IMG/VR virus record: IMGVR_UViG_3300035698_032643
Location: 1 to 38,415 of that record
Strand: one strand, 5' to 3'
Source: a virus
Length of the DNA stretch: 38,415 nt
The notes below the pieces were generated by a model. That model saw only the letters and a list, made by a program, of their open reading frames with translations, did no database searches and had not been told where the DNA came from. A program made the translations under genes and the position numbers. Position 1 is the stretch's first letter. Each line of letters begins with the position of its first letter. This document shows positions 6,125-38,415 of this stretch, one piece after another.

Positions 6125-6143
6125 CGCAAATGTTATAAATAAG
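6125..6143 (+). promoter_or_regulatory. Archaeal-type promoter, late class, leaderless start
   Basis: CGCAAATGTTATAAATAAG contains a TATA box at 6133-6140 whose centre is about 28 bp before ATG 6165. That spacing predicts a transcript starting at or next to the ATG. The motif matches sites at 7117, 22328, 30228, 32695 and 33887. Confidence 0.75.
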
Positions 6144-6164
6144 AAAAATAATTAAATATATAAA

Positions 6165-7111: not shown

Positions 7112-7116
7112 ATTTG

Positions 7117-7137
7117 CCGATAATGTTATAAATAAGA
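7117..7137 (+). promoter_or_regulatory. Archaeal-type promoter, late class
   Basis: The TATA box TTATAAAT is at 7126-7133 inside the shared motif CGATAATGTTATAAATAAG. ATG 7182 is about 50 bp downstream, leaving a leader of roughly 25 nt. The sequence is identical over 23 bases to the site inside the protease gene at 33887-33909. Confidence 0.75.
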
Positions 7138-7181
7138 ATGATCTATATCTAAATTAATTAGTATGTATGTGAGAAAATAAA

Positions 7182-20008: not shown

Positions 20009-21580
20009 ATGGAAACAATAAAAATTGAAGAACTAAAAGTTTTAGACAACATCAGAAAAGATATGGGGGATATGAAAGAGCTTGAAGAAAGCATAAAAGA
20101 GCATGGTATCCTAACCCCATTAATAGCAACAGAAGATAAAACTCTTGTGGCAGGGCATAGAAGACTTCAGGCTGCAAAAAATGCGGGAATTAAAGAAGTG
20201 CCAGTTGTTTTTTTTAAGAAGAAAAATAATAAGCAGTGGAGATCTGAAGTACAAATTTTGGAGAATGTGCATAGAAAAGATTTGGATGCTGTTGAGGAAG
20301 GAAAAGCTTTCCAGGATTATATTAAACAAAATGATTCTGATGTGAAAAATCTTTCTTATAAGATTAAGAAAACAACTCAATATATTCAGAGAAGAATAGA
20401 AATTAATAAGGCTGCACCGGAAGTAAAAACAGCATTAAAGAATAGTGAGATTGAGATAGGGCATGCTATTCTTTTAGGTCAGATGAAAAAGGATCAACAA
20501 AAGATAAGTATTGAATCAATAAAAGAGTTTGACTTGACTGTTCAAAACTTTTCTGATCAGATAAGATGGATGAAAAAGATTGATTTTGGAAATCTGAAGT
20601 TCAGGCCTTCTAAAGAAATTAATGGACAGACTACAATATTTGATAGTATAGGCCAGGAATTAGATCCATTATCGGAAGTTGATTCTTATGGTGATCTGGA
20701 CTTAAAATCAAATAATATTTTTAAGAAAGAAATATCTGATTATGTTGAAAGTCAAAGGAAGATGTTAAGAGATAAAGGAATAAATGTTTTTGCGAGCGAA
20801 GGAGATCTTATTAATAAACATCCAGAAGCTGAAGAAGTTAATAATTGGGATGGAGGATATACTAAGATTGTGAAAGGACTTCCTAAAAGTAAGAATTTTG
20901 CAATTGTTGTAGACTTTGGAAATTATGATATAGAAAAACAAATTTATAGATTAAAGAAAAAGGATGCAGCTAAAGACTTAAGTGCTAAAGATTTAAAGAA
21001 AGCAGCTAAATCAGGAAAGGTTTCAAAAAAGGAAATGGAAGAAGCAGAAGAAACTCTTGAGTTGTCCAGGAAGCAGAAACTTCAGAGTAGGGTTGAATTT
21101 TATAAAAGGAAATTGTTTAAGTCTCAGCTTGAAGAGTTTGCTCCTGAAGATGGAAAGCTTGCAAAGGTCCTGGCTGTTTCTGCTTTGATGCATAATGTTG
21201 AAAACATATTTTATGCTGATGGGTATAATGAATTAAGTGATTTCATAGAATATTCAAAAAAGGGAGAGATAGGATTCTTAAACACTCTAAAAGAAGATGT
21301 CCTGGATTCATGGATAAAAAAGTTAGGGACAAGCAGGTATAATTCATTAGATAATGCAGAACTATTCACTGCTTTAAAACTATCAGGTTTTGAATTAAAA
21401 AAGCATTGGACAATTGATGAAGATTATCTCGAACTTCATACCAAGGCACAGCTTGAAGAATTAATAAAAGAGTTTAAACTGGTATGTATAACAGAAGGAA
21501 AGAAAGGAGATATTATTGCAGAGATTCTCAAATGTAAACTTAACGGAAAAGTTCCAAAGATAATGTTGAAAAATGAATGA
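20009..21580 (+). CDS. ParB-domain protein with long C-terminal extension
   Basis: 523 residues. Residues 1 to about 110 are a ParB/Srx N-terminal domain: EESIKEHGILTPLIA, then the GHRR motif (TLVAGHRRLQAA, about 45-56) and LENVHRKDLDAVEEGKAF, followed by an HTH-like region to about 165. In ParB the GHRR region binds CTP and DNA. The C-terminal 300 residues are helical and charged and not recognised; the last about 50 (AQLEELIKEFKLVCITEGKK) may be a SAP-like DNA-binding end. No ParA ATPase is seen. Start has ATATTGGAGATGA at 19990-20002. Could act in DNA modification, replication or transcription. Confidence 0.7.
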   Translation: METIKIEELKVLDNIRKDMGDMKELEESIKEHGILTPLIATEDKTLVAGHRRLQAAKNAGIKEVPVVFFKKKNNKQWRSEVQILENVHRKDLDAVEEGKAFQDYIKQNDSDVKNLSYKIKKTTQYIQRRIEINKAAPEVKTALKNSEIEIGHAILLGQMKKDQQKISIESIKEFDLTVQNFSDQIRWMKKIDFGNLKFRPSKEINGQTTIFDSIGQELDPLSEVDSYGDLDLKSNNIFKKEISDYVESQRKMLRDKGINVFASEGDLINKHPEAEEVNNWDGGYTKIVKGLPKSKNFAIVVDFGNYDIEKQIYRLKKKDAAKDLSAKDLKKAAKSGKVSKKEMEEAEETLELSRKQKLQSRVEFYKRKLFKSQLEEFAPEDGKLAKVLAVSALMHNVENIFYADGYNELSDFIEYSKKGEIGFLNTLKEDVLDSWIKKLGTSRYNSLDNAELFTALKLSGFELKKHWTIDEDYLELHTKAQLEELIKEFKLVCITEGKKGDIIAEILKCKLNGKVPKIMLKNE

Positions 21581-22327: not shown

Positions 22328-22344
22328 CGCAAATGTTATATAGG
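22328..22344 (+). promoter_or_regulatory. Archaeal-type promoter (CGCAAATGTTATATAGG)
   Basis: TATA at 22336-22342. It shares CGCAAATGTTATA with the 6125 promoter. The expected start is near 22365, giving a very short leader before ATG 22382. Confidence 0.65.
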
Positions 22345-22381
22345 AGAAACATCATTAATAGAAAATGGGTGTATTTGAACA

Positions 22382-22624
22382 ATGTCAATTGATGAAGATG
22401 TCTCAACTTTCTGTTGTGGCGATGGATTTGTATGTGAAGAAGATCTTAAATGGGACTCCAGGAAAGAATATATTGAAAAATTTCAGCACACCTATAATCC
22501 AGCACATTTATACTGCCGCTTAAAAGAATGCGGTCTTGATGATGAGAATGTTAAAGCACTTTGTAAGGTTTATGATTATGAAGTTTACCAGGTGATTATT
22601 GCTAATTTTAGAGAAAGGGTATGA
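22382..22624 (+). CDS. 80-aa Cys-containing hypothetical protein
   Basis: ATG 22382 is the first good start after the 22328 promoter; a competing ATG at 22365 in another frame gives a less protein-like product. Sequence includes TFCCGDGFVCEEDLKW and LYCRLKECGLDDENVKALC, so a metal site is possible. Its stop lies inside the stem of the terminator at 22617. Family not recognised. Confidence 0.5.
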   Translation: MSIDEDVSTFCCGDGFVCEEDLKWDSRKEYIEKFQHTYNPAHLYCRLKECGLDDENVKALCKVYDYEVYQVIIANFRERV

Positions 22625-24048: not shown

Positions 24049-24195
24049 ATGGTAGATATAAAATCAATAAATAGGTGGGCTAAGTGGCTTATTGACAGGA
24101 TTGAGTGTGTGACTTCAATACAACAGATGGAGATCACACCAACAAAAACACACTTAATATTTGTGATAGAAGATGGAAAAAGAAAAAAAGATTGA
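24049..24195 (+). CDS. 48-aa hypothetical protein
   Basis: ATG 24049 is 3 bp after the previous stop and the frame overlaps the next gene by 23 bp. Sequence NRWAKWLIDRIECV then ITPTKTHLIFVIEDGK is compatible with a helix and a strand pair. No family recognised; supported by tight packing only. Confidence 0.4.
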   Translation: MVDIKSINRWAKWLIDRIECVTSIQQMEITPTKTHLIFVIEDGKRKKD

Positions 24196-24778
24196 AATAA
24201 AAGAAGTAAGTTTGGATAAGTTACAAGAGGATTCAACAAATCCAAATCGTATGACAACAGAAAAGTTTGAATCATTAAAAAAAGGAATACAAAAATATGG
24301 GTTCTTAGTTCCAGTTATTACAAATAAAGATTACTTGATTGCAGATGGTCATCATAGGTTTAGGGCAGCAAGAGATCTTGGATATGAAAAGATTCCAGTT
24401 GTTGCTTTGGATGTTTCAAATGTTGATAGAATAATGCTTAGGCAAGTAATGAACAAGCTTCGAGGAGAGCATAATTTAATGAAAGATATTGATGATTTCG
24501 AAAAAATAATGAGTGACAAAGGAGACTTGAAAGAGTTTGCAGATCTTATGGGACAACAACAAGATTTCTTTAGGGATGTGATCAAACTTAAAGATGAAGA
24601 AATGGAGCATTACATTGTTGTAAGGGATTATAATAAAGAGATCAATAGTCCGCAACAAGTTAAGCAGCTTAAACTTAAACTTACAGAAGATCAGAAAATT
24701 ACAATAAAACAGAAGTTTCAAACACAAGAAAACCTTTTAGGGATAACAGATTACTTTATAGTTTTGGAGGAAGAATGA
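24173..24778 (+). CDS. ParB-like nuclease-domain protein
   Basis: 201 residues. The ParB/Srx domain occupies about 1-110: EVSLDKLQEDSTNPNRMT, then LKKGIQKYGFLVPVI and the motif IADGHHRFRAARDLG (GHHR in place of GHRR). The C-terminal half is helical and ends with a strand. It overlaps the methyltransferase ATG by 4 bp. ParB-domain proteins often travel with phage DNA methyltransferases, so the two probably act together on DNA. Confidence 0.75.
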   Translation: MEKEKKIEIKEVSLDKLQEDSTNPNRMTTEKFESLKKGIQKYGFLVPVITNKDYLIADGHHRFRAARDLGYEKIPVVALDVSNVDRIMLRQVMNKLRGEHNLMKDIDDFEKIMSDKGDLKEFADLMGQQQDFFRDVIKLKDEEMEHYIVVRDYNKEINSPQQVKQLKLKLTEDQKITIKQKFQTQENLLGITDYFIVLEEE

Positions 24779-25686
24779 AATTTGTAGATCTTTTTAGTGG
24801 GGCAGGAGGATTAAGTCTTGGTTTTAAAAAAGAAGGATTTAAAAGCCAGGGATTTGTAGAATTTTGGCAGCCAGCAATTGAAACAATGCTTAACAATGAT
24901 CCTGAAGAAAAACTTATTCTTAAAGATATCACCGAAGTAACTAAAAAACATTTCACCTCAAACACTGATGTGGTGGTCGGAGGGCCACCATGTCAAGGTT
25001 TTAGTATGGCTGGGAAAAGAGAAGTTGGGGATAACAGAAATAGTTTGTTTGAATATTATTTTAAGGTTGTTGATTATACGCAACCAAAGTTTTGTCTTAT
25101 GGAAAATGTGCGAGGGATCCTTTCAATGAAAGATGTTGATGGAAAACTAATCATAAACAAAATAATTTCTGCATTTAAAGATAAGGGTTATAGGACAGAT
25201 ATTAAATTGTTGAATAGTTTTAATTATTGTGTTCCTCAGAAAAGGCAAAGAATTATTATTATAGCAAACAAAGAAGGAATTAAGTTTGATTTTCCTGAAC
25301 CAAGATCAAAAATGTTTCTAAAAGAAGTTTTAACACTTCCTTATGAAGAACTGCCAGAGATACAGCATATTTATACTAAGAAAAAAATGCTTATGAAGAA
25401 AGGATTTTATATGAAACCAGGACAGAAGATTAGTAGTTTTGGAAGTGCAGGAATTAAGTTAAGATGGAGTCATGCACCAACGATTACTAAGACTGGGAGG
25501 TATATTCATCCAGGGTTTAATAGGTTGATAAGTGTTCGTGAAGCTGCAAGGATCCAGACGTTTCCGGATGATTATATGTTTTCTGGAAATATTGATCAGA
25601 AGTATGGTCAGATTGGGAATGCTGTTCCTGTTAATATGGCGAGAGCACTTGCAGGACAAATAAAAAAGAATATTGGAGATGATTAA
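24775..25686 (+). CDS. C5-cytosine DNA methyltransferase (orphan)
   Basis: 303 residues with the full motif set: I DLFSGAGGLSLGF (5-17), IV GGPPCQGFS with catalytic Cys at about residue 74, VI ENVRG (about 114-118), VIII QKRQRIIIIA (about 155), IX region REAARIQTFPDDY (about 263) and X GQIGNAVP (about 282). It transfers a methyl group from S-adenosylmethionine to carbon 5 of cytosine. The target-recognition region between VIII and IX is short. No restriction endonuclease is adjacent, so protection against host restriction or gene regulation is likely. Its last codons carry the ribosome site of the next gene. Confidence 0.93.
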   Translation: MKFVDLFSGAGGLSLGFKKEGFKSQGFVEFWQPAIETMLNNDPEEKLILKDITEVTKKHFTSNTDVVVGGPPCQGFSMAGKREVGDNRNSLFEYYFKVVDYTQPKFCLMENVRGILSMKDVDGKLIINKIISAFKDKGYRTDIKLLNSFNYCVPQKRQRIIIIANKEGIKFDFPEPRSKMFLKEVLTLPYEELPEIQHIYTKKKMLMKKGFYMKPGQKISSFGSAGIKLRWSHAPTITKTGRYIHPGFNRLISVREAARIQTFPDDYMFSGNIDQKYGQIGNAVPVNMARALAGQIKKNIGDD

Positions 25687-30221: not shown

Positions 30222-30227
30222 AAATAT

Positions 30228-30246
30228 CCGATAATGTTATAAATGA
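30228..30246 (+). promoter_or_regulatory. Archaeal-type promoter, late class
   Basis: CCGATAATGTTATAAATGA with TATA at 30237-30244 and ATG 30275 about 34 bp from its centre, so the transcript has a very short leader or none. Drives the portal gene. Confidence 0.75.
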
Positions 30247-30274
30247 CAATCATTATTAAATTAGATTAGACACG

Positions 30275-32694: not shown

Positions 32695-32711
32695 CGATAA
32701 TGTTATAAACG
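32695..32711 (+). promoter_or_regulatory. Archaeal-type promoter, late class, leaderless start
   Basis: CGATAATGTTATAAACG with TATA at 32703-32710; ATG 32734 is about 28 bp from its centre. Confidence 0.75.
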
Positions 32712-32733
32712 AATTCTATTATAATAAAATATT

Positions 32734-33147
32734 ATGGCAACAGCAGAACAACAATTATTAAGCGCAGTTGATAAATTCATGGATGATATTGCAGATAGAA
32801 TTTTTGAACTTAGCCAATTAACTCTTATTGATGAAAACAAAACTGATAGTTCAACAATGTTTAAAACCGCAAATGTTGTAAGAAAACCTTTTGAGAAAAC
32901 AATTGTTTATCCTGCACCTTATTCTGATGTTATCGAGTTTGGAAGAAATCCAGGAAGTCCAGTTTATAGTAAATGGTTACATAAATGGGTTGAAAGAAAG
33001 CTTGGAATTACTGATCCTAAAAGGATTAAGAGTGTGAGTTTTGCAATTGCAAAGAGTATACAAGAAAGAGGATTGCAAGCAACTAATTTTTTGACTAATG
33101 CTGCTTTTAAAGCAAGGAGTGAAATGGAGAGTGGAATAAATGAATGA
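32734..33147 (+). CDS. HK97 gp10-like head-tail joining protein
   Basis: 137 residues. IVYPAPYSDVIEFGRNPGSP (about 57-76) followed by IAKSIQERGLQATNFLTNAA (about 103-122) fits the HK97 gp10-like family: the short beta hairpin with Y-x-x-x-I-E-F-G, then an amphipathic helix. These proteins sit at the neck between head and tail. Here the gene lies before the protease and capsid genes, apart from the other neck genes at 6165-7616. It overlaps the protease gene by 8 bp. Confidence 0.75.
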   Translation: MATAEQQLLSAVDKFMDDIADRIFELSQLTLIDENKTDSSTMFKTANVVRKPFEKTIVYPAPYSDVIEFGRNPGSPVYSKWLHKWVERKLGITDPKRIKSVSFAIAKSIQERGLQATNFLTNAAFKARSEMESGINE

Positions 33148-34495
33148 TGTAATGTTTGTTAAAAAATCTGAAGGTAATGCAGCATATTCTTTTAATGAGG
33201 TTTTGGATGCTTTCCAGAGTATGGATGATATGGAGATGCTTCGTGAAGTTGTTGAGAATGCTGAAGATAGAGTTTATGTTAGTTGGGCGAGTGTTGATGT
33301 TCGTGATCATGATGGTGAGAAAGTTCAGATAACAGATATAATTAATGATCAAGATACTTTGCTTAAAAGGAATGGTCCTATTTCTGATACTCATACTAAT
33401 GCTATTGTTGGCCAGACGCATGCATATAAAGTTCTTGAACATCCTGAAGCTAAGAAGATGGGTGTTTTGCATTTGAACAGGATCTTTGATGATAATAAAC
33501 AGGATGATCTTGTATGGAGCGAAACCCAATCTGGAAAAAGAAAAGGATCCAGTGTGGGAGGTTTTAATCTAAAGTTTAAATTTGAGAAGGATCCTGATAC
33601 TGGTCTTATGACAAGGATCAGAGATGATTTTCACCAGTATGAGACTGCTAATGTTAAGGATCCTGCAAATCCTTTGGCACTTAATGAGTTTGTAAGTTTG
33701 GTTGCTAAGAGCAAAAATCCGATTAAGAAAATGCTTTCTAAATCAGAAATGGAGACTGTCGACGACATAATGGGCTATGTGGCAGGTAAGATAGCTAAAT
33801 TAAAGGAAACTTTTGATAAAGGTTATGAAAAGCCAAAAAAAGAAGTTGGCAAAGAAGAAACAAAAAAGGCAAATTCGGACAAAAACGCCGATAATGTTAT
33901 AAATAAGAAAACTAATGATTTAGATAATGTTGAAAAATCTAAATTTATGAGGGATAAAAAAATGGCTGAAGAAGTTAAAAAAACAAATGATGAACAGATT
34001 GCTTCTATTACTAAATCTGTGGGTGACTTAACAGATGTTGTTAAATCACTTGCTGAGAAAGTACAAAAGCAAGATGCAATAGTTGCAAAACAAGAAGATG
34101 AAAAACCTAAGGAAGAACCTAAAGAGGAACCTAAGGTAGAAAAACCTGAAGAGAAAAAGGTTGAAGAGACAAAGAAAGAAGAAGCAAAATCAGATATTCC
34201 TGGAGAAGCAGATGCTAAACAACCTGAACCTCCTTTAGCAGAAAACAGTAATCAAGAATCAGTTTTCAAGGAAATGGTTTCAAAACAGAATACGATTATT
34301 GAAGGATTACAAAAGGATATGGCATCAGTTAAGAAATCAGCTGAAACCAGACCAGGATTCCAAGAGACAGCGAAAGTCACAAAAGCAAGAAAAGAAAATG
34401 AAACTCTTGCAGTAGATATCGCAAAAGGAACTGTTAAGAAATCCTTCAGACACTGTCATGATGTAAGCCGAGATATGGGCTTACTAATCGAGTAG
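33140..34495 (+). CDS. Prohead protease fused to scaffold domain
   Basis: 451 residues. Residues about 40-215 form a U35/HK97-type prohead protease: YVSWASVDVRDHDGEKV, His85 in ISDTHTNAIVG and Ser137/138 in GSSVGGF. After a Lys-rich linker (about 230-265), residues about 275-451 form a scaffold: coiled coil (EEVKKTNDEQIASITKSVGD), a repetitive Glu/Lys/Pro stretch, and a second helix ending RHCHDVSRDMGLLIE. The protease matures the procapsid and removes the scaffold. A promoter and ribosome site inside the gene indicate separate expression of the scaffold half. Confidence 0.85.
   Translation: MNDVMFVKKSEGNAAYSFNEVLDAFQSMDDMEMLREVVENAEDRVYVSWASVDVRDHDGEKVQITDIINDQDTLLKRNGPISDTHTNAIVGQTHAYKVLEHPEAKKMGVLHLNRIFDDNKQDDLVWSETQSGKRKGSSVGGFNLKFKFEKDPDTGLMTRIRDDFHQYETANVKDPANPLALNEFVSLVAKSKNPIKKMLSKSEMETVDDIMGYVAGKIAKLKETFDKGYEKPKKEVGKEETKKANSDKNADNVINKKTNDLDNVEKSKFMRDKKMAEEVKKTNDEQIASITKSVGDLTDVVKSLAEKVQKQDAIVAKQEDEKPKEEPKEEPKVEKPEEKKVEETKKEEAKSDIPGEADAKQPEPPLAENSNQESVFKEMVSKQNTIIEGLQKDMASVKKSAETRPGFQETAKVTKARKENETLAVDIAKGTVKKSFRHCHDVSRDMGLLIE
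33887..33909 (+). promoter_or_regulatory. Intragenic late-class promoter inside the protease gene
   Basis: The motif CGATAATGTTATAAATAAG lies here inside a coding region and the site is identical over 23 bases to the intergenic promoter at 7115-7137. TATA is at 33897-33904; the expected start is near 33928, upstream of ATG 33947 and ATG 33962. Confidence 0.7.
33962..34495 (+). CDS. Nested scaffold protein (in-frame internal start)
   Basis: 177 residues, identical to the C-terminal part of the protease gene product. ATG 33962 has its own ribosome site GAGGGA (33949-33954, 7 nt spacing) and lies about 60 bp downstream of the intragenic TATA box. ATG 33947 is an alternative. This arrangement gives excess free scaffold relative to protease, as for lambda C/Nu3, where the smaller protein starts inside the larger gene. 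In lambda the control is translational; here a promoter also seems to be used. Confidence 0.65.
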   Translation: MAEEVKKTNDEQIASITKSVGDLTDVVKSLAEKVQKQDAIVAKQEDEKPKEEPKEEPKVEKPEEKKVEETKKEEAKSDIPGEADAKQPEPPLAENSNQESVFKEMVSKQNTIIEGLQKDMASVKKSAETRPGFQETAKVTKARKENETLAVDIAKGTVKKSFRHCHDVSRDMGLLIE

Positions 34496-34509: not shown

Positions 34510-35637
34510 ATGGTAGACTTTAACAATATGGACAATCTTTTACAACATTATTATGGTGGGTTTGGTGTAAAAAAAGATGCACCAGTTCTTACTACAACAA
34601 CAGGCGTTTATAACCCAGTGTTTGGAGCTTTCGCATTTAATCAGATAAATATGGAAGCAAATGCATTTGCGTTATTGCCTAAATATCCATGGCCGCATTC
34701 AGGATTTAGAGCTATCACAGCAGATCCTTCAAGTTCAGATTATGGAGCAGTAGCAGAAAACGGAAATATTCCTGCAACTATTAAGCCAACATTTGCAGAA
34801 ATTACAGTGACCACAAAGCAAGTAGTTCATTCTTTTGATGTTTCATACATCCAAGAGGGTAAAGTGAATAAGTCAGCTGATGATGCAATTGGAGATATGG
34901 AATTCTTAAGAGGTTACTTTGCAACATTCCACGGAAAGGATATTAACCGTCAGATTTTGATTGATGGAGATACTCTTGCAACAAACAAATTTGAAAGTAT
35001 TGATAGGGTAACCGCATCAAGTGCTTATGCAACAGCAGTTGGATGGACAGCAGGAGATGAAGATATCTATGGAATCGACAGAAGTGGAGCAGCATGGGCA
35101 GATGCTTATGTAAACCATAATTCTGGAGTTGACAGATTCTTAACTGATGAGATCATCAGGACAAGTTTTTCAAATCTTGAAACAAATGGTGCTGCAACTA
35201 ATTTAATGTTGACAGGAAATGACACTAAATGGAAGATCTTTGGTATTTACGAAAACCAAGTAAGATATCAAGGAGTTCTCCAAAAGAATGTTGGTTTTAC
35301 TATTGGTATTAACGGTGTTGAAACTGATGGTGGAATGGGAGCAGGTGTTCGAGTAGCAACTGTTTACGGTACACCTTTGTTCAGCACTCAGAGTGCAGCG
35401 CAAGATACAATTTCAAGAATTTATATGCTTGACACAACTGAAGAAGCAGGAAGTGGACGGCCAAGACTTGGAATCTCACTTATGTATCCGACACTTTACT
35501 TTGAAAGCGGAATGAGTGCAGCAAATCCTAATCCGTTTGCGATTGGAAGATTTGGAACTGAAGGAGTTTATTATACAGCAGGAGAATTGGTGTGTACTTT
35601 TTTAGCAGCACAAGGATCTATAAGAGATCTTAAGTAG
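34510..35637 (+). CDS. Major capsid protein (HK97 fold)
   Basis: 375 residues with a strong ribosome site (AGGAGGAG at 34495-34502). Typical order for an HK97-fold capsid: N-terminal arm, then FALLPKYPWPHSGFRAIT, a long strand pair (ITVTTKQVVHSFDVSYI), spine-helix region (GYFATFHGKDINRQILIDG) and P-domain, and a late strand region (YGTPLFSTQSA). It directly follows protease-scaffold, as in most tailed viruses. No long N-terminal delta domain is seen, consistent with the separate scaffold. Confidence 0.85.
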   Translation: MVDFNNMDNLLQHYYGGFGVKKDAPVLTTTTGVYNPVFGAFAFNQINMEANAFALLPKYPWPHSGFRAITADPSSSDYGAVAENGNIPATIKPTFAEITVTTKQVVHSFDVSYIQEGKVNKSADDAIGDMEFLRGYFATFHGKDINRQILIDGDTLATNKFESIDRVTASSAYATAVGWTAGDEDIYGIDRSGAAWADAYVNHNSGVDRFLTDEIIRTSFSNLETNGAATNLMLTGNDTKWKIFGIYENQVRYQGVLQKNVGFTIGINGVETDGGMGAGVRVATVYGTPLFSTQSAAQDTISRIYMLDTTEEAGSGRPRLGISLMYPTLYFESGMSAANPNPFAIGRFGTEGVYYTAGELVCTFLAAQGSIRDLK

Positions 35638-37594: not shown

Positions 37595-38415
37595 ATGAAG
37601 TTAACAAAAATATTTTTTTTAATTTTATGTACAATTTTATTCTCACAAATAGTTAGTGCTGTTTATCCTTTTATTCCTACAGGAGATATTGATGGTGTAG
37701 GAATTCGTGGAATAAGAAATATGACTACAATTAATTCTTCTGAAGGTTTTTATGATGATGGAGTTTTATTGACTCCAGGAAACTTGTCTTGGAACCAAGC
37801 TGTTGCAGATTCTTTATATATTGCCTTAATTGAAGAAGGAAATATTAATGGAAATAGTTCAGTTTATTGGTATACTGTGAAAGGTCCGATTAATAATTTT
37901 AAGAGCAGATGGTTCTTTCGTGATGGAAATTATCTTGATTATGATGAATCAAGACTTAATGATACAATTGATTTAAGAGCTTCAGGAAACACTTCTTTTA
38001 ATCAATCAACTACAAACAAACTTTATGCAACACATGATGCAGTTAGAAATAATTTTACAGAAGCAGAAGCTTATACTAATCTTACAAATGAGACTAACAC
38101 AAATTACACTAATGCATTGAATAAAACTACTGCAGACAGAATTTCTTCTATAACTCCCACGAATTTAACTGAAGAAGATGTGGATGTATTTAACAATAAT
38201 TTGGGTTACAAAAAAGAAGCTTATAACACTTCCACTCAGATTGATGGTGTTGTTGAAGGTCTTGGTTTCAGAAAGAATGCTTACAATGAGTCAGATCTTA
38301 ATGCAACACAATTAAAAGAAGATAATGGAAAACTTACAATAATTGTTTCATGGTTAAGAAGTTTATTTTATACTAAAACAGAAGTTGATACAAGGATTGT
38401 AGATAACATAACTGA
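37595..38415 (+). CDS. Fibre-like, sequon-rich exported protein (N-terminal part; continues at base 1)
   Basis: Start of the gene that ends at 2705. ATG 37595 is preceded by AGGTTAAG. The first 22 residues are a classic signal peptide: KLTK, a hydrophobic core (IFFLILCTILFSQIV) and cleavage site SA before VYPF. The following 250 residues already hold about sixteen N-x-S/T sites (NETNTNYTNALNKTT is an example) and repeats such as EAEAYTNLTN and RKNAYNESDLNA. Frames match across the join (694 nt here plus 2705 nt), giving 1132 residues. The role is adhesion or receptor binding by inference. Confidence 0.85.
   Translation, partial: MKLTKIFFLILCTILFSQIVSAVYPFIPTGDIDGVGIRGIRNMTTINSSEGFYDDGVLLTPGNLSWNQAVADSLYIALIEEGNINGNSSVYWYTVKGPINNFKSRWFFRDGNYLDYDESRLNDTIDLRASGNTSFNQSTTNKLYATHDAVRNNFTEAEAYTNLTNETNTNYTNALNKTTADRISSITPTNLTEEDVDVFNNNLGYKKEAYNTSTQIDGVVEGLGFRKNAYNESDLNATQLKEDNGKLTIIVSWLRSLFYTKTEVDTRIVDNIT
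38289..38415. repeat. Terminal direct repeat, right copy
   Basis: Exact copy of bases 1-127; see the left copy. It should be removed once to obtain the genome of about 38,288 bp. Confidence 0.95.

Follow-up and report, generated by a model that had tools for sequence, protein, structure and literature searches.

A late-promoter copy inside the protease-scaffold gene of archaeal tailed viruses, predicted to give a separate scaffold transcript

Tailed viruses need their scaffold protein in large excess over the prohead protease. In the C/Nu3 pair of phage lambda the scaffold is produced from an internal in-frame start, without a separate promoter, and we know of no promoter inside the protease gene of either lambda C/Nu3 or Mu I/Z. 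Mu-like phages also make their scaffold from an internal in-frame start with a ribosome site in the protease gene (PMC4378225). In herpes simplex virus 1, UL26.5 has a promoter with a TATA box that lies inside the UL26 protease gene (PMC2949831), a location also given in titles cited by PMC4498786, and in Marek's disease virus a promoter inside the protease gene shows a start peak 24 bp after its TATA motif (PMC10284419). Among archaeal tailed viruses, a short conserved repeat carries the late promoters of halovirus HF2, with the TATA at about -26 (PMC8707807), and in the Haloferax tailed virus HFTV1 an RNA-seq start site lies inside the gp56 coding sequence (PMC12542753); in the passages found, no internal promoter is reported for the scaffold/protease gene gp17. 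We found no earlier report, in the open-access literature, of an internal promoter in the protease-scaffold gene of a prokaryotic virus.

The DNA analysed here (the window) is a viral record of 38,415 nucleotides, AT-rich and with short AT-rich repeats in common supply. An exact 127-bp direct repeat at both ends (1-127 = 38289-38415) makes it probable that this is a complete genome of ~38.3 kb, either circular or terminally redundant. Its non-structural region encodes, at 20009-21580 and 24173-25686, a ParB-domain protein, a second protein that resembles ParB by sequence and a C5 cytosine methyltransferase. A preliminary description of this DNA proposed that a promoter within the prohead protease gene drives a nested scaffold protein; the features concerned are as follows.

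33140..34495, plus strand: prohead protease-scaffold open-reading frame, 451 aa, with protease domain, disordered linker and coiled scaffold
33887..33909, plus strand: predicted intragenic late promoter, a 23-bp copy of 7116-7138
33921..33930, plus strand: predicted transcription start, inferred from archaeal promoter geometry, ~24-30 nt past the start of the TATA core
33949..33954, plus strand: Shine-Dalgarno-like GAGGGA of the internal start (GAGGGA also precedes the internal ATG of L022, from G011)
33962..34495, plus strand: nested in-frame scaffold open-reading frame, 177 aa, stop codon in common with the protease frame
34510..35637, plus strand: major capsid protein (PHROG 24667), 14 bp past the scaffold stop
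6125..6144, plus strand: predicted intergenic late promoter preceding the 6165 gene, a less exact copy
7116..7138, plus strand: predicted intergenic late promoter preceding the 7182 gene, with all 23 bp as in the intragenic copy
30227..30249, plus strand: predicted intergenic late promoter preceding the portal gene, the third match at <=3 mismatches
32695..32714, plus strand: predicted intergenic late promoter preceding the 137-aa head gene, a less exact copy

The label protease-scaffold, assigned from the sequence without database searches, is upheld by the family matches of the relatives, by invariant residues and by the modelled fold. The window protein by itself matched no Pfam or PHROGs family, and it had no match amongst phage records, so relatives were needed for the family assignment. 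Aligned relatives match PF04586 Peptidase_S78 (7.8e-8), PF14550 and the PHROG head maturation proteases, and H85, S138 and E168 do not vary across 20 sequences; from general knowledge of the S78 family we take these residues to be catalytic. The AF2 model comprises a folded domain at ~12-194 (pLDDT mostly above 90 over ~12-192), a low-confidence disordered linker (~195-204 and 230-260) and then a long helix (261-318). Searched against a viral structure library, the protease domain matched prohead proteases at 1e-8 and below, whilst VIA-align 2 against the PDB placed it near T4 gp21 (Z 11.0) and the proteases of VZV (9.9), PRV (pUL26N, 8.9) and HCMV (8.3), herpesvirus assemblins spanning Z 7 to 10 overall and the next unrelated rows ~5. 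Foldseek searches of the PDB with the full-length model and with the domain gave nothing below 1e-3, and matches in a PDB sequence-profile search were confined to the coiled, charged part. As modelled, the protease domain is of the T4 gp21/herpesvirus assemblin fold.

The 23-base string GCCGATAATGTTATAAATAAGAA is present both at 33887-33909, within the protease-scaffold frame, and at 7116-7138, between genes; the exact identity first described is therefore real, although the intergenic copy had been placed one base too low (7115-7137). Its TATA-like core TTATAAATA occupies 33897-33905, with the virus-specific upstream element CCGATAATG. Allowing up to three mismatches, GCCGATAATGTTATAAATAAGAA matched the window at three positions (33887, 7116 and 30227), against none in 100 dinucleotide shuffles. 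A weight matrix was trained on the four other good sites of the window (6125, 7118, 30229 and 32695), all of them intergenic and shortly before structural genes, with 33889 left out. It scored the internal site (33889) at 22.7 bits, equal to 7118, and in 300 third-order-Markov genomes no site reached this value, the best scoring 16.4. The internal site is not a product of chance, as the preliminary description had argued from the identity alone. Synonymous shuffling with the peptide kept gave only p = 0.055 for the window taken alone. With regard to the other copies, the 6165 gene has a weak head-tail adaptor match, and the 32695 promoter is, by its position, also upstream of the full-length protease-scaffold gene. 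A weaker copy, CGCAAATGTTATATAGGAGA, lies at 22328-22347 before a short open-reading frame at 22382, outside the structural region. Replication-origin or packaging repeats were considered as an identity for the copies, and were excluded by their promoter-like distance from structural genes and their restriction to a single strand.

The in-frame internal ATG (33962-33964, Met275) follows the internal TATA element after 66 bp and, like GAGGGA, was found at the place originally given, 177 codons from the common stop. A second ATG at 33947 (182 aa) is without a ribosome site, and GAGGGA is itself weaker than the AGGTGAT of most relatives. The claim that this ATG sits exactly at the border of linker and coil is only roughly correct, Met275 falling ~14 residues inside the predicted helix. 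The major capsid gene has its own ribosome site, GGAGGAG, and between the scaffold stop and this gene there is no promoter of the internal-site family; it is probably on the same internal transcript as the scaffold. The intergenic copies typically stand ~32 bp ahead of their ATG, consistent with mRNAs that are nearly leaderless; the predicted internal transcript, unlike these, would have a leader long enough for its ribosome site.

Capsid-based searches recovered 25 other viral contigs, at 40-68% identity in the capsid protein, and in addition a contig that agrees with L015 in length and hit position and is binned in a Pacearchaeota genome; the named relatives, the haloviruses HCTV-1, HVTV-1 and HCTV-5, share 33% capsid identity. 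Within this set, window included, protease genes share only ~26-44% identity over their full length, and the linker cannot be aligned. In a comparison of 19 related viral contigs, 13-14 others have a site of their own at the same place, 45-66 bp before an internal ATG, bringing the contigs with a late-promoter copy before the internal start to 14-15. Loss of the motif in relatives had been named beforehand as an outcome that would refute the proposal; when the comparison was run, it favoured the proposal: a TATA-like element followed by an in-frame ATG in the protease gene was found by position only in 12 distinct contigs (the window and 11 relatives), and three more (G012, G014 and G021) yielded weaker sites at the same place on comparison with their own promoters. 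G007 and G020 did not pass the automatic test and agree only in core and position. No internal site can be recognised in at least four relatives with a fused gene (G011, G013, G015 and G017), and inspection by eye alone gave no obvious TATA site before the internal ATG in HCTV-1, HVTV-1 and vir519 (a Methanofastidiosa virus), which have long protease-scaffold genes and are more distant by capsid. G011 (L053, near 12210, 12695 and 9796) presents an alternative arrangement, with AAGCGTTATAAAC promoters elsewhere, directly before the protease gene, a 138-aa gene and a portal-sized 746-aa gene. In G021 (L032, 5870-6890) the major capsid gene apparently occupies two frames, reflecting a frameshift or a sequencing error.

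The internal ATG and its Shine-Dalgarno sequence, mostly strong and often AGGTGAT, are kept in most relatives at 155-202 codons before the stop, even in those with as little as 40% capsid identity, and are present even where no promoter can be recognised (G011, G013, G015 and L034). The TATA element precedes the internal ATG by 56 +/- 6 bp (15 contigs) and the major capsid ATG by 595 +/- 43 bp (range 523-659, 12 contigs). Two relatives, G018 and G022, encode protease and scaffold as separate genes with the scaffold open-reading frame alone before the capsid gene, and it likewise stands alone there in G019, which is cut off upstream, thus the scaffold part can be a unit of its own. The separate genes of G018 lie at 9838-12723 of L061; in L040 (G022, reverse strand) a homing endonuclease-like open-reading frame lies between the two.

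The internal sites copy the intergenic promoter of their own virus, not that of the window. When 12 contigs were searched in full with their own internal 24-mer, the best or near-best matches were usually 29-39 bp before portal, terminase and head genes, the head gene being the one of 130-137 aa. Internal and own intergenic sites agree over 20/20 bases in G003 (internal site GCAAAAGTCATATAAATAAG), G025 and G006, and over 23/24 in G005. The reverse search, with the intergenic promoters of eight viruses, gave a single in-gene match each at >=18/24, located in the protease gene in 8/8, and none at that threshold inside any other gene; promoter sites stood 26-39 bp before most structural-gene start codons of these viruses, which fits short leaders. 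These late sites fit the archaeal TATA/BRE promoter pattern, in that a TATA-like element, ~26 bp before the inferred transcription start, is reused before several genes, whilst the elements upstream of it vary by virus (CCGATAATG, GAAACTG, AAAAGTC, GACAATC, GCAAATG, GCAAGCG and GATGGCG). Permuting own against other viruses' promoters gave p = 2e-5 over 24 nt and, when restricted to the 11 nt that precede the TATA, p = 1e-4. Only sites picked without reference to promoters entered this test, the three found by likeness to their own promoters being left out, and it is less exposed to kinship, though viruses that are related may have promoter types in common. When codon order was shuffled in the protease gene, p = 0.001, the floor, was reached in the window, G001, G003, G005, G006 and G025 (Fisher over 14 contigs, p = 4e-14), and synonymous shuffles with the peptide kept gave single values from 0.0025 to 1 (Fisher p = 1e-7), weak for any one virus since most of the motif is dictated by the peptide. 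Both Fisher values ignore kinship; since the contigs share ancestry they overstate independence and are only indicative. Covariation with active promoters is not explained by shared inheritance alone. Across the late promoters of one virus the element upstream of the TATA changes in concert (in relatives such as L003, L016, L006 and L036), and this virus-specific behaviour suggests a virus-specific, perhaps virus-encoded, late initiation factor.

We consider it likely that the internal site is a functional archaeal-type late promoter giving a shorter mRNA for extra scaffold and, very probably, major capsid protein. The long mRNA from the 32695 promoter would encode first the head protein of 137 aa, then the complete protease-scaffold fusion and what lies beyond it. 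Transcription from the internal promoter would begin ~25 bp past the TATA box and give a shorter mRNA with a leader of ~30-40 nt, on which ATG 33962 would be the first start codon with a ribosome site, yielding the 177-aa scaffold without protease, and the major capsid protein would be the next product. In this way scaffold and shell protein, of which many copies are required, would be made in excess of the protease, of which a few suffice. The resemblance between upstream and internal promoters gives no ground for claiming that one is stronger than the other. Promoter activity, start site, shorter protein and stoichiometric purpose are all inferred, in the absence of transcript or protein data, whereas the sequence identity, its excess over chance, the conserved position together with the internal ATG, and the covariation with own promoters were observed directly. 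The original suggestion that a separate archaeal promoter raises the scaffold:protease ratio gains support from the conserved, covarying site, with activity and short protein still inferred, but names only part of the likely job, because the major capsid gene begins 14 bp past the scaffold stop and must likewise be served by this promoter.

It is conceivable, if unlikely, that the promoter serves the major capsid protein, with the scaffold incidental or made only from the long mRNA. The adjacent capsid gene, with its strong ribosome site and a spacer lacking a family promoter, would suit such a role, as would a capsid start within 523-659 bp of the internal TATA in 12/12 measured contigs and the promoters directly before the protease and 138-aa genes of G011, which has no internal site. 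A promoter for the capsid alone could, however, sit anywhere upstream, the spacer before the capsid ATG included, whereas the spacing is tight to the internal ATG (sd 6 bp) and loose to the capsid ATG (sd 43 bp), and the scaffold ATG is the first on the transcript with a ribosome site. Scaffold and capsid cannot be fully separated as the selective reason; the narrow spread of distances to the scaffold ATG tips the balance towards the scaffold.

It is very doubtful that, in the style of lambda C/Nu3 and Mu I/Z, only the internal translation start matters and the promoter-like sequence is an inherited, unused remnant. Internal ATG and Shine-Dalgarno sequence are indeed wider spread than the promoter (G011, G013, G015 and L034), and Mu-like phages do have internal starts in their protease genes (PMC4378225), but an unused remnant would neither change in step with the active promoters of its virus nor keep 20/20 or 23/24 identity to them. 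More improbable still is that the similarity stems from a conserved V/D-I-N-K peptide, for instance a protease cleavage site, which looks TATA-like in an AT-rich genome. The translated site does read (V/D/H/L)-I-(N/K)-(K/I/E) in many relatives and the window match was regenerated in 5% of synonymous shuffles; yet in most viruses the TATA-like sequence is stop-free in one frame only, so that a V-I-N-K-like peptide follows from the DNA motif, and the peptide differs where the promoter differs (YLNN in G009, GSPQHKK in G012). The combined synonymous-shuffle value speaks against the peptide as well, and rare codons, GTT (2/30 Val) and ATA (3/17 Ile), are found at the site in G010 (48% GC). Chance, a recombination copy or an assembly artefact could be entertained only for the AT-richness of the genome and its common short repeats, and is scarcely credible given the empty simulated genomes and the recurrence of the same region in another record, L001; independent relatives that repeat the arrangement with different sequences already refute it.

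The preferred reading, a functional internal promoter for extra scaffold, finds its closest known arrangement in herpesvirus UL26/UL26.5. Both have one open-reading frame with the protease N-terminal and the scaffold C-terminal (in the window from the AF2 model and the protease homologues of relatives), and a shorter in-frame open-reading frame for the scaffold alone with a common stop, and the modelled window protease domain resembles assemblins. The internal promoter known from the herpesviruses has a predicted counterpart in the window, for which the comparative sequence evidence is very strong and the activity inferred. They differ in that the archaeal scaffold start has a Shine-Dalgarno sequence, that the archaeal internal transcript probably runs into the capsid gene whereas UL26 and UL26.5 mRNAs are 3'-coterminal, and that the archaeal promoter belongs to a set of late-promoter copies repeated within the genome and specific to the virus. 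With lambda and Mu the window shares the in-frame internal start with a ribosome site in the protease gene, but the archaeal viruses have in addition a late-promoter copy 45-66 bp before that start, its activity inferred. A separate internal promoter is thus a different solution, as had been proposed, from the translation-only start of lambda and Mu, but it is not unprecedented, herpesvirus UL26.5 already having one. HF2 is likewise an archaeal tailed virus that reuses a short promoter repeat, but its repeats are intergenic whereas the window has one copy inside coding sequence. HFTV1 is also an archaeal tailed virus with a promoter inside coding sequence, but there gp56 has a supposed genome-replication role and no shorter product was proposed.

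Archaeal tailed viruses and herpesviruses both rely on TATA-box transcription, and a separate scaffold promoter in an assemblin-fold protease gene could be an old trait common to the two by descent, replaced by translation-only nesting in bacterial phages, though we regard this as a long shot. Independent origin of the archaeal and herpesvirus arrangements is as likely or likelier, because several related archaeal viruses are without the internal promoter although the fold is shared. Fused-gene bacterial phages use internal translation and herpesviruses an internal promoter, and the promoter solution in archaeal viruses whose protease shares this fold would connect the two; conserved and covarying, it would provide a comparative system for the question of ancestral versus convergent origin. 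The internal scaffold start would also mean that annotation of these archaeal virus genomes misses a structural gene, and the approach offers a sequence-only route to recognising late promoters in uncultivated archaeal viruses.
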